The notes beneath the pieces are model-generated. The model saw only the letters and a program-made list of their open reading frames with translations. It did not search any database and was not told the DNA's origin. DNA of 64,000 nt from Fidelibacterota bacterium. Its GTDB lineage: Bacteria > Fidelibacterota > Marinisomatia > Marinisomatales > TCS55. This document shows positions 55,171-59,381 of this stretch, piece by piece (position 1 is the first letter of the stretch; the number at the start of each line of letters is the position of its first letter). Location of the stretch: positions 1 through 64,000 of the forward strand of contig SCKN01000001.1 in assembly GCA_004124385.1 (NCBI GenBank), in the 5' to 3' direction. The position numbers and the translations under genes were made by a program.

Positions 55171-56913
55171 ATGATTTTCAAAACCGCTTTCTTGACGGTC
55201 ATAATTTCTTCGTTCATATTTGCTGGTCATCCAATAACAATTGATGGTTTGTTTGACGATTGGGATGAAGTTGATATAAGCTATTCAGATAGTCAGGGCG
55301 ATGGCGCAGACGCCGATTTTGCAGTTATCAAGATCACGTACGATAATGATTTTCTGTTCATCTATTTCAATTTCCATGATGGAGAATACCTAATGCAGGA
55401 TTGGAATGAATTTCACTTGTACATCGATGCGGATAATGATACAACAACTGGTTATTACATTAATGGTATAGGAGCTGAATTGGACTGGTTATTTGGTGAT
55501 CGTTCGGGATCCTATTATATAATGGATGGAATCATTGATATATACCAAAATGATTTAACATTGCGCATGGCGCCAACCATTACCAATCATGAATTTGAAA
55601 TTTGTATCTCCAGGAACAGTAATGTGCTCACAATGGATGGTACTCAAGTTTTAGTGGAAGGAAAAGTCATCCTGACAGATACGGGACAGAATGCTGATCA
55701 AATACCTGATGAAAATGGGGGTATTAGTTTTTCAATCGGCGAAGATTACATTATGCCGCCTACACCTATAACATTTGATAAAAGGGATGAAACGGATATC
55801 CGGCTGGTTACACATAATGTGTGGAATTCAAGCATGATGGACCCAAATTATCAAGAACACTTTCGACGAATCTATCAAGCATTAGATCCTGACATTGTGG
55901 CACTCCAGGAAATGTATGAGAATACAAACCAGCTGCACAGCTTATTCAATGACTGGTTTCCTGATGAGCAATGGTATGTCAGCAGTCAATTCCGTGATAA
56001 TATCATTATATCAAAATATCCGGTTTTGGAGGAGGACTATTTCACTTCATCAGAACGAACGATGGTGGCGCTTCTGAATACGGACGATGAATTAGGCAGC
56101 GACCTCATTATCTTCAATTCACATTTAGCCTGCTGCGATAATGATGAAAGCCGGCAATACGATGCAGATGAATTTGTATCCAATTGGAGAGATTGGCGCG
56201 AGAATGGTAATGGTCCTTTTAGTATGGATGAAAATACTCCTTTTGTCTATGTGGGCGATTTCAATTTGGTGGGTTATCGGCAGCAGCTTACGACATTTAC
56301 CGAAGGAGATATTGAAGATGAAAATACGTTTGGAGATGATTATAATCTAGATTGGGACAATACGCCTATTGCAGATTTATTTTCACGTCACTCTCATAAC
56401 CGCATGGGCTATACCTGGCGTTGGGATAACAGTTCATTCAGTCCTGGTAAACTGGATTATATTTTATACACGGATAGCGTTTTGGATACCAGCAAGCATT
56501 TTGTCTTTAACACGTTAACAATGGATTCGGCTTCCCTGGCAGAATATGGCCTAGAAGAAATGGATAGCTATAATTCATCGGATCATTCACCAAGAGTTTT
56601 GGATATTAAAATAGCGAATGTTGTGGGAATTGGTGAATCAATTGTGCCTACGACCATTAATGTTTCCGCTCCATATCCTAACCCATTTAATCCCCAAACT
56701 GTAATACAAATTCACCTTGATAAGAATACTCATTTACAGGTAGATGTTTATGATGTAAATGGACGATTTATTAGGCAGCTTGCAAATGAAAATTTTCAAA
56801 GCGGTATTCATGAGATAGCATTCATTAATGATGGTTTATCCAGTGGATTATATTTTATTAAAATACATAATGGTGCATTTCATCGTACATTTAAAGTACT
56901 ACTCTTAAAATAA
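55171..56913 (+). CDS. Secreted EEP-family hydrolase with N-terminal CBM9-like domain and T9SS domain
   Basis: The 580-residue protein has a signal peptide (ISSFIFAGHP), then a domain beginning ITIDGLFDDWDEV with LYIDADNDTTTGY, typical of CBM9-like/DOMON-like modules (residues ~20-190). The EEP domain follows (IRLVTHNVWNSS, DIVALQEMYEN, YVGDFNLVGY, SSDHSPRVLD), so phosphodiesterase or DNase activity is expected. From about 56671 a T9SS sorting domain (PYPNPFNPQT to FKVLLLK) ends it. It is the secreted counterpart of the EEP enzyme at 6747. It overlaps the SUI1 gene by 1 bp. Confidence 0.9.
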   Translation: MIFKTAFLTVIISSFIFAGHPITIDGLFDDWDEVDISYSDSQGDGADADFAVIKITYDNDFLFIYFNFHDGEYLMQDWNEFHLYIDADNDTTTGYYINGIGAELDWLFGDRSGSYYIMDGIIDIYQNDLTLRMAPTITNHEFEICISRNSNVLTMDGTQVLVEGKVILTDTGQNADQIPDENGGISFSIGEDYIMPPTPITFDKRDETDIRLVTHNVWNSSMMDPNYQEHFRRIYQALDPDIVALQEMYENTNQLHSLFNDWFPDEQWYVSSQFRDNIIISKYPVLEEDYFTSSERTMVALLNTDDELGSDLIIFNSHLACCDNDESRQYDADEFVSNWRDWRENGNGPFSMDENTPFVYVGDFNLVGYRQQLTTFTEGDIEDENTFGDDYNLDWDNTPIADLFSRHSHNRMGYTWRWDNSSFSPGKLDYILYTDSVLDTSKHFVFNTLTMDSASLAEYGLEEMDSYNSSDHSPRVLDIKIANVVGIGESIVPTTINVSAPYPNPFNPQTVIQIHLDKNTHLQVDVYDVNGRFIRQLANENFQSGIHEIAFINDGLSSGLYFIKIHNGAFHRTFKVLLLK

Positions 56914-57236
56914 TGGGTAAAAAATCTAAAGTCGTTTTTTCAACGAATCCTGATTATCTAGACGAAGTAATTAAAAATGTAGATACACTACCAAAAGAAG
57001 AGCAGCAATTACGTGTTTGGTTAAAGCGATTGGGAGGCGGAAGATTGCTAACGGTGGTGAAAGAGTTTGTAGGTGCCGATGATGAATTGCTCTCATTGGG
57101 AAAGGTGTTAAAAACGAAATGCAGTTCAGGTGGTACGGTAAAGAATGGTGAAATTCTAATTCAGGGTGACCATCGGGACAAAATTGTGAACCTTCTAAAC
57201 GAAAAAGGATATAAAGCAAAAGCCAGTGGAGGATAA
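56913..57236 (+). CDS. SUI1/YciH family translation factor
   Basis: The 107-residue protein has the eIF1/SUI1 fold pattern: LRVWLKRLGGGRLLTVVKEF, LLSLGKVLKTKCSSGGTVKNGEI and IQGDHRDKIVNLLNEKGY. Bacterial YciH proteins are thought to influence start-codon choice or stress translation. The start overlaps the upstream stop (TAATG). It directly precedes the candidate selenoprotein gene. Confidence 0.92.
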   Translation: MGKKSKVVFSTNPDYLDEVIKNVDTLPKEEQQLRVWLKRLGGGRLLTVVKEFVGADDELLSLGKVLKTKCSSGGTVKNGEILIQGDHRDKIVNLLNEKGYKAKASGG

Positions 57237-57280: not shown

Positions 57281-58468
57281 ATGAATATACTTAAAAATAC
57301 ATTATTTCTTCTGCTGGGCTTAAGTCTGGTGAATTGCGGAAAACCGGCAAAAACCGGCAATGTTACCATGATGGTCACTGCAAATGTCCGCGGTCAACTT
57401 GATCCCTGCGGCTGAAAAAAGAATCCTCTGGGCGGTCTGTCCAGGAAATCAGTATACATAAATAATTTTCGTAAGGAAAAGGGTATCGATCCAATAATTT
57501 TGGATGCGGGTGATGCGTTTTTTGCTTCTGCAATTCTAGCAAATCAGAATGCTGATGGCGATAAACTTCAGGCAAAAGGATTATTGAAAGGCTATGAAAA
57601 AATTGGATGTGATGCCTTGAATGTTGGCGGTTTTGATCTGGCCGCAGGAAAGGAATTTCTAATGTCTCTTTCTGAAGGATCTTCAATTCCATTTATTTCA
57701 GCAAATTTGACGGATACTAATGATAATCTATTATTTCCTGCTCAAGTCATTATAGAACGCAGCGGTTTTAAGATTGGCGTTACCGGCTTTAGTGATCTTA
57801 TTCCTCAACATATTGATGATGTCAAAAAACGTCCTTATGTGGAATCAGTCAATAAAGTGATTGCAGAAATGAAGTCAGCGGTAGATTATGTTGTGCTGCT
57901 TGCAAACGTTGAACGAAAAAAAGTAAATGGATTAGTGGCAAATTTTCCGGATGCTGATTATATTTTCATCAGCCGCGATACACAACGAACTCGACCTACA
58001 ATAAAACAAGTTGATGGAGGCCCTTATGTATATTCAAGCGGCGTGCAGGGCAAATATTTAACAATGGTCAATATTTCATTAGATGATGTAAGTCAGCCTA
58101 TTGTTGATATTTCTACTGCTACAGGAAAAATCACATCCATTAATCAGCGTTTAGAGAAACTGCAGAAAAAAGATCCAGTCAGAACAATTGAAGAAATGTA
58201 TGCTGATAAACCGAACGTATTGAAACTGGTTAGTGATTATCGTCAGCAATTGGTTAAATACGAAACCATCATGGCAGATGCCATTAATACGACTCAATAT
58301 GAAAGTATTCCTTTAAGCAAGGCTGTGGGTGAAGATGCCGAACTCTTGGCATTCGTTGATGAAACATTGGCTACATGTTCAGCGTTACGTAAAAAAAATA
58401 TCAAATTATCTAAAAATATAATCAAGCCTAAATCAGGCCCTCTCAAAAAGACAATCAGCATTAATTAA
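57281..58468 (+). CDS. Candidate selenoprotein: UshA/metallophosphoesterase-like lipoprotein with in-frame TGA (Sec45)
   Basis: An ATG at 57281 opens a lipoprotein (LGLSLVNCGKP) that runs 44 codons to TGA 57413-57415 and continues in the same frame to TAA at 58468 (395 residues in all). The TGA lies in DPCG[TGA]KKNPLGGLSRK; as I recall the family, this position is Cys (PCGC...GGLARR). Later parts follow the 5'-nucleotidase layout (IILDAGDAFF, ALNVGGFDLAAG, PFISANLTD), but the metal ligands of the first and GNHE motifs are missing, so it is unlikely to be a phosphatase. A SECIS-like hairpin follows the TGA. Three base pairs separate its stop from the rhodanese gene. The alternative is a nonsense mutation or sequencing error. 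Confidence 0.75.
57416..57449 (+). promoter_or_regulatory. Possible bacterial SECIS element
   Basis: Directly after the TGA, CTGG (57428-57431) pairs with CCAG (57441-57444), extended by C57426-G57445 across a bulged T, around the 9-base loop GCGGTCTGT. The loop begins with G and starts 16 bases after the TGA, at the near limit of the spacing known for bacterial SECIS elements (about 16-37). The stem is short, so support is moderate. Confidence 0.5.
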
Positions 58469-58470
58469 TT

Positions 58471-58935
58471 ATGCTCCGCGTTCCCTTGAACCAAATACTG
58501 GTGATCATTGTACTTTCGCTCGTTGTCGGTTTTTTTGTAAATATTATTCGTTCAGATAGTATTCCACTTTTGGCAAAAGAAATGTCCATAACCAAGAATC
58601 TCGATGAAATTTCGGGTGAACCTGTTGCAATTTCATTGTTACAGGCTAAAACGCTGTTTGATAAAGGTGTCGTATTTGTGGATGCTCGGGGAGAAGAATA
58701 TTTTGCTGACGGCCATATACAAAATTCATGGAACAGTGGATTTTTCATGGAACTGATGTTCAAACTGGATTCAGCACAAACGAAGTCAGGCCTAGTTGTT
58801 TTATACTGCGGTGAAGATGAATGTGGTTCCAGTGAAGAATTAGCGGATGATTTATATAACGAAGGTTTTTCAAAATTATTTGTATTTAAAGGTGGTTGGC
58901 AGGAATGGAATGAAGCTGGATATCCCGTTGAATGA
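58471..58935 (+). CDS. Membrane-anchored rhodanese-like protein
   Basis: The 154-residue protein has one N-terminal transmembrane helix (ILVIIVLSLVVGFFVNII) and a rhodanese domain with VVFVDARGEEYFADGHIQNS (CH2A-like) and an active-site loop YCGEDECGSSEELA, whose first Cys would carry the persulfide. It faces the periplasm if the anchor is a signal anchor. It lies 2 bp behind the candidate selenoprotein gene and overlaps the MauE/DoxX gene as ATGA, so the three probably act together in thiol or sulfur transfer. Confidence 0.9.
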   Translation: MLRVPLNQILVIIVLSLVVGFFVNIIRSDSIPLLAKEMSITKNLDEISGEPVAISLLQAKTLFDKGVVFVDARGEEYFADGHIQNSWNSGFFMELMFKLDSAQTKSGLVVLYCGEDECGSSEELADDLYNEGFSKLFVFKGGWQEWNEAGYPVE

Positions 58936-59381
58936 GTAATGAAATGAAAAATATGATGGTGATGATTTGCCGTATTTTCCTGGGCTTTATGTTCATTTAT
59001 GCCAGTTTGGATAAAATTGCGAATCCTGAAGAATTTGCAAAACAAATAGGCTATTATAAAGTACTGCCGTTTGGTATCGAGAATATATTAGGTATTATTT
59101 TACCTTGGACTGAATTAATCGTTGGTGTGTGCTTGATTGCCGGATTATTGGTTGATGGTGCAGCATTATTGAGCATTATTATGATGCTTGTGTTTATTTT
59201 AGCAATTTCCCAAGCAATGCTTCGGGGCATCGATATCACCTGCGGTTGTTTTAAAGTGAGTGCCGATAGTGATAAACTGGGTCTGGATACCATTATTCGT
59301 GATATCATATTTTTTGTTATGAGTATGATCGTATTGAACCGCCAGGAAAGAAAGTTTGAATTCCTGCCGAAATCCGATTGA
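58932..59381 (+). CDS. MauE/DoxX family membrane protein
   Basis: The 149-residue protein has four hydrophobic helices and the pattern GFMFIYASLDKIANPEEFA and LPWTELIVGVCLIAGL, as in MauE/DoxX. A DITCGCFKVSADSD stretch at the third-fourth helix turn offers a CxC redox pair facing the periplasm. MauE takes part in disulfide formation in methylamine dehydrogenase; this protein may pass electrons to or from the rhodanese and the selenoprotein-like lipoprotein. Confidence 0.87.
   Translation: MSNEMKNMMVMICRIFLGFMFIYASLDKIANPEEFAKQIGYYKVLPFGIENILGIILPWTELIVGVCLIAGLLVDGAALLSIIMMLVFILAISQAMLRGIDITCGCFKVSADSDKLGLDTIIRDIIFFVMSMIVLNRQERKFEFLPKSD

Follow-up and report, generated by a model that had tools for sequence, protein, structure and literature searches.

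The UGA at position 57413 of the window, the 64,000-nucleotide stretch of DNA analyzed here, very probably specifies selenocysteine (Sec) in a protein of the UshA-like family. The gene is a genuine selenoprotein of a known kind, in a shorter lineage variant that falls below the curated family cut-off, and a clean member of a catalogued selenoprotein family. Its lost phosphoesterase residues, its kept Cys/Sec pair and the repeated presence of rhodanese and MauE genes beside it provide a concrete, testable functional lead for a family that has no assigned function. The features concerned are listed in Table 1.

Table 1. Features of the UshA-like selenoprotein locus (window coordinates).
Feature	Position	Strand	Remarks
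UshA-like selenoprotein gene	57281..58468	+	395 aa when TGA codon 45 is counted as an amino acid (predicted Sec)
In-frame TGA, predicted Sec45 of the PCGU motif	57413..57415	+	Cys43 lies two residues upstream
SECIS-like hairpin	57428..57444	+	stem CUGGGC/GUCCAG; apical loop GGUCU, 57434-57438
Rhodanese, membrane-anchored, with YCxxxxC active-site loop	58471..58935	+	conserved partner gene
MauE/DoxX-type membrane protein with CGC motif	58932..59381	+	conserved partner gene

Reading frame and conservation of the TGA/Cys site

From its ATG to the TAA that closes it, the gene is a single frame interrupted by one TGA, in the context DPCG[TGA]KKNPLGG, exactly as an earlier sequence-only reading of the window had described. 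The N-terminus is lipoprotein-like, with a lipoprotein signal that places Cys at residue 19 (LSLVNC19), and the remainder comprises only the N-terminal metallophosphoesterase-type domain of the 5'-nucleotidase family. The identical TGA is found in dozens of assemblies, among them independent metagenome-assembled and single-cell genomes; sequencing error at this position is therefore excluded, and an assembly error was rejected as its source.

Of 245 genomes in the phylum, 235 gave a match in the family search, and most of the strong matches have exactly one in-frame TGA. When 99 homologues are aligned, this site shows 89 Sec codons, nine Cys codons and one misaligned row that also reads PCGU, bringing the total for TGA to 90/99 against 9/99 for Cys. 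The statement in the sequence-only reading that homologues carry Cys here holds for these nine, with TGA in all the others. Farther afield, a homologue from Calditrichaeota has TGA followed by the same hairpin, and two proteobacterial homologues have Cys. The coding-like sequence that the sequence-only reading saw around the TGA was upheld as well: in dozens of genera the frame is kept both before and after it, and downstream of the TGA, substitutions between close relatives concentrate at third codon positions, as expected for coding sequence. Neighboring genes use ordinary stops, TGA among them (58935, 59381), and a TTG start is present at 57500, as would suit a true stop that leaves either a pseudogene or two separate genes; this is nevertheless highly improbable and was rejected, contradicted by the conserved frame and by a TGA that is itself either kept or replaced by Cys.

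Scanning genome contigs with an alignment of the family as the query recovered 33 loci, whereas the same scan with a single UshA-like protein gave no match, and a plasmid search for the gene matched only an ordinary nucleotidase. Nearly all named relatives from the contig scan are Candidatus Neomarinimicrobiota/Marinimicrobia, and the UshA-like protein of the closest relatives is 76-77% identical over its whole length; the host of the gene is Candidatus Neomarinimicrobiota.

Selenocysteine machinery and the SECIS-like hairpin

The sequence-only reading had tied its case for Sec to the presence of the decoding machinery in the same genome, and all of it is there. The source genome (2.09 Mb in 11 contigs, 96.8% complete) encodes SelA (445 bits) and SelB (363 bits, above cut-off), whose genes adjoin on contig 1, together with SelD (410 bits) and a tRNA-Sec that scores above the gathering threshold and has the anticodon TCA (UCA in RNA). 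SelD of this genome is a selenoprotein too, with one in-frame TGA in SHGSG[TGA]ACK (L018:1501-2424 = G000:C11:16125-17048).

Downstream of the TGA, 57428-57433 pairs with 57439-57444 in a 6-bp stem, and counting from the U of UGA, the apical loop begins at +21. The GC hairpin with a G-starting loop that had been noted from the letters of the window is real, but its reported spacing of 16 nt is not: the TGA triplet is separated from the 6-bp stem by 12 nt, or by 11 nt if an extra U-G pair is included. Folding of the window hairpin as a single sequence gave a weak signal (z = -1.2), a scan of the source genome for TGA-N18-GGTCT found the motif to be no rarer than chance, and the Rfam models of bacterial SECIS elements gave no match. 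Since the single-sequence fold and the genome scan are at chance level, it is the comparison of homologues that carries the case for a SECIS element, and the hairpin owes its significance to conservation across homologues rather than to the window sequence alone.

That conservation is extensive. The loop GGUCU follows 87 of the 89 Sec codons examined compared to two of nine Cys codons, and among those 89 GGUCU loci it lies at +21 in 87 and at +18 in two. The codon for Gly51 is GGC in every Sec gene (56/56); at other conserved glycines, all four codons are in use. Across 35 distinct hairpins with a five-base loop, 94.8% of stem cells are paired. Doubly changed stem cells number 16 compared to 3.5 in shuffles that ignore relatedness (0/500), and the pairing signal is likewise lost when the stem partner is shifted by one to three columns. 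The stem covaries at synonymous sites: one of its positions, with a third codon position on either side of the pair, shows all six standard pair types. A second group of homologues has a hairpin with a six-base loop.

The locus thus combines the marks of a bacterial selenoprotein gene, namely, a UGA flanked before and after by conserved coding sequence, homologues with Cys in its place, a SECIS hairpin just downstream with a conserved loop, and a genome with SelA, SelB, SelD and tRNA-Sec. With the machinery complete, the TGA/Cys site conserved and the TGA repeated across assemblies, the reading of this UGA as Sec that was first made from the window's sequence is strongly supported. Decoding would proceed through SelB and tRNA-Sec by way of an fdhF-type SECIS hairpin within the coding sequence. 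Genome-wide reassignment of TGA (code 4 or 25) would likewise yield an in-frame TGA, but its probability is negligible and it was rejected, given that neighboring genes end in TGA, that the genome has the full Sec system and the gene a SECIS hairpin, and that homologues have Cys at the site and not Trp or Gly.

The UshA-like family is almost universal in Neomarinimicrobiota, with the Cys form in genomes without SelA. No SelA above cut-off was found in the streamlined genomes of family f9 or in family f23. Eleven genomes without SelA above cut-off that gave a family match (89-99% complete) were checked; 10 have a stop-free gene. Nine of the 10 show Cys at the site, in most cases with the GGC-GGT-CT codons missing, and the motif search gave no reading for the tenth, L199. 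In the eleventh, G066 (91% complete), SelA was not detected, yet the TGA form is kept. Conversely, Cys forms also occur in some SelA-positive genomes (L101, L103, L108), and the association between SelA and Sec is therefore not strict in that direction. In the SelA-positive L023/L108 (G197), the Cys form is still followed by the hairpin codons GGC-GGT-CTT-GCC, which looks like a recent change from Sec to Cys.

Family assignment and gene neighborhood

Among profile families, the protein best matches NCBIfam NF041198, named "UshA-like (seleno)protein" (197.4 bits, E = 3.6e-58), at a score below its curated cut-off of 275 bits. The match covers model positions 5-387 of 519, leaving about 130 C-terminal model positions missing. 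A score above 275 bits is reached in one of the 245 phylum genomes, and NF041198 is nonetheless the best family by far, matched by 62/62 members (best E = 2.9e-74) together with the PCG[U/C] motif. Because nearly all UshA-like genes score below the curated cut-off, we suggest that standard annotation cuts them short or leaves them without a name. The family is listed with the motif CxU in reviews (PMC13188914, PMC9312934), and a count in Global Ocean Sampling (GOS) data gave 76 forms with Sec and 92 with Cys (PMC2398784). An AlphaFold model of the protein is confident (pLDDT 93.9, pTM 0.88) and matches 5'-nucleotidases in the PDB (Foldseek E about 1e-18, TM 0.60).

Two genes lie directly downstream of the UshA-like gene in the window: one for a rhodanese that has a single membrane segment at its N-terminus and, overlapping it by 4 bases, the MauE gene. 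Most of the sampled families f1-f15 have the pair directly downstream as well, f16, f18 and f19 have it upstream, and the cysteine motifs of both proteins are preserved in nearly all sampled neighborhoods. That the trio is kept through a change of gene order argues for a functional link. The partners are not obligatory, since f9, f20 and most of the phylum's deeper lineages lack them next to the gene. Where present, these neighbors hint that the protein takes part in sulfur or redox chemistry beyond the cell membrane.

Other features of the neighborhood vary. A SUI1/YciH-like translation initiation factor gene (56913-57236) lies directly upstream of the UshA-like gene, an order that recurs in many relatives. 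One genome (L063, G079:C53) has a second Sec-type copy without the rhodanese/MauE pair. In three streamlined f9 genomes (L087:5488-5988, L105, L088), a PepSY_TM membrane protein gene directly precedes the Cys form, without rhodanese or MauE; as it was seen in these three genomes only, PepSY_TM was rejected as a general partner.

Loss of the metal site and proposed role

The dimetal ligands and catalytic residues of UshA, whose identities are established from its structure, have largely disappeared from this family. Across 62 members aligned to 1ush, there is no conservation at the equivalents of D41, H43, N116, H117, D120, H217, H252 and Q254 (the last three were located by reading the UshA alignment), and the equivalent of the bridging D84 is mostly kept (Asp in 47/62). 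Cys43 and Cys/Sec45 are present in 62/62 and are the sole invariant reactive residues; from the alignment we infer where this pair sits relative to the former metal site. The C-terminal substrate-binding domain of UshA-type 5'-nucleotidases is missing from the short product, and matches to sequences of solved structures cover the N-terminal domain. With the two-metal and catalytic residues lost, nucleotidase activity is most likely absent: the loss of residues is observed, and the loss of activity is what we infer from it. The sequence-only reading was thus right in calling the protein UshA-like as to fold and family (NF041198, 5'-nucleotidase fold), and any implication of a UshA-type enzyme did not hold. 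The protein is probably a pseudo-phosphoesterase with the Cys-x-Sec pair as its reactive center.

We tentatively propose that the protein serves in periplasmic thiol/selenol redox chemistry or in a persulfide relay rather than as a nucleotidase. The gene is predicted to encode a lipid-anchored, extracytoplasmic selenoprotein; Cys43 and Sec45 would form a selenosulfide redox center, and this center could pass electrons or sulfane sulfur to and from two co-encoded proteins, the rhodanese (CxxxxC) and MauE (CGC). We speculate that a metallophosphoesterase fold may have been converted into a Cys-x-Sec protein that works with rhodanese and MauE in a three-component selenium/sulfur relay at the inner membrane, not previously described. 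In the titles, abstracts and targeted passages of the open-access literature, we found no description of such a module under Marinimicrobia selenoproteins or under an association of rhodanese, MauE and a selenoprotein. Within that same literature and to that depth, neither the loss of metal-site residues nor the rhodanese-MauE association was found described, and both are additions made here.

Alternatively, the protein could perform SoxB-like chemistry on thiosulfate or other sulfur compounds, with Sec as the sulfur carrier. SoxB is a two-manganese thiosulfohydrolase of 5'-nucleotidase-type fold; it is among the best non-self families, and a rhodanese gene adjoins. We consider this role unlikely, as the metal ligands are lost and no SoxB above cut-off is present in the genome, which offers merely a weak match at nucleotidase level. 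Less likely still is a retained UshA-type metal-dependent nucleotidase or phosphoesterase with CxU as an accessory or regulatory site. The fold, the profile match to 5'-nucleotidases and the mostly kept Asp84 equivalent fit such an enzyme, but every metal ligand apart from that Asp, and the His/Asp dyad of catalysis too, has been replaced by variable residues, and the C-terminal domain is gone.

The proposed Cys-x-Sec protein shares individual traits with several known systems. Its SECIS-like hairpin has the same apical loop, GGUCU, as that of E. coli fdhF, and its distance from the U of UGA, 21 nt, is exactly the same there, but the stem sequence differs. It resembles SoxB in fold and profile and possibly through a link to sulfur chemistry, yet has no metal site. 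UshA-like (seleno)protein family 2 (NF049981) is a Sec-containing family of the same superfamily with CxxU as its listed motif, not CxU, and the window protein scores only 30 bits against its cut-off of 140. With E. coli UshA and CD73 it has the N-terminal fold in common and lacks the dimetal ligands, the catalytic dyad and the C-terminal domain, with CxU present instead. Its closest counterpart is UshA_like_PCGU (NF041198), with which it shares the PCGU motif, the fold and the alternation of Sec and Cys, and from which it differs in being shorter and below the cut-off.
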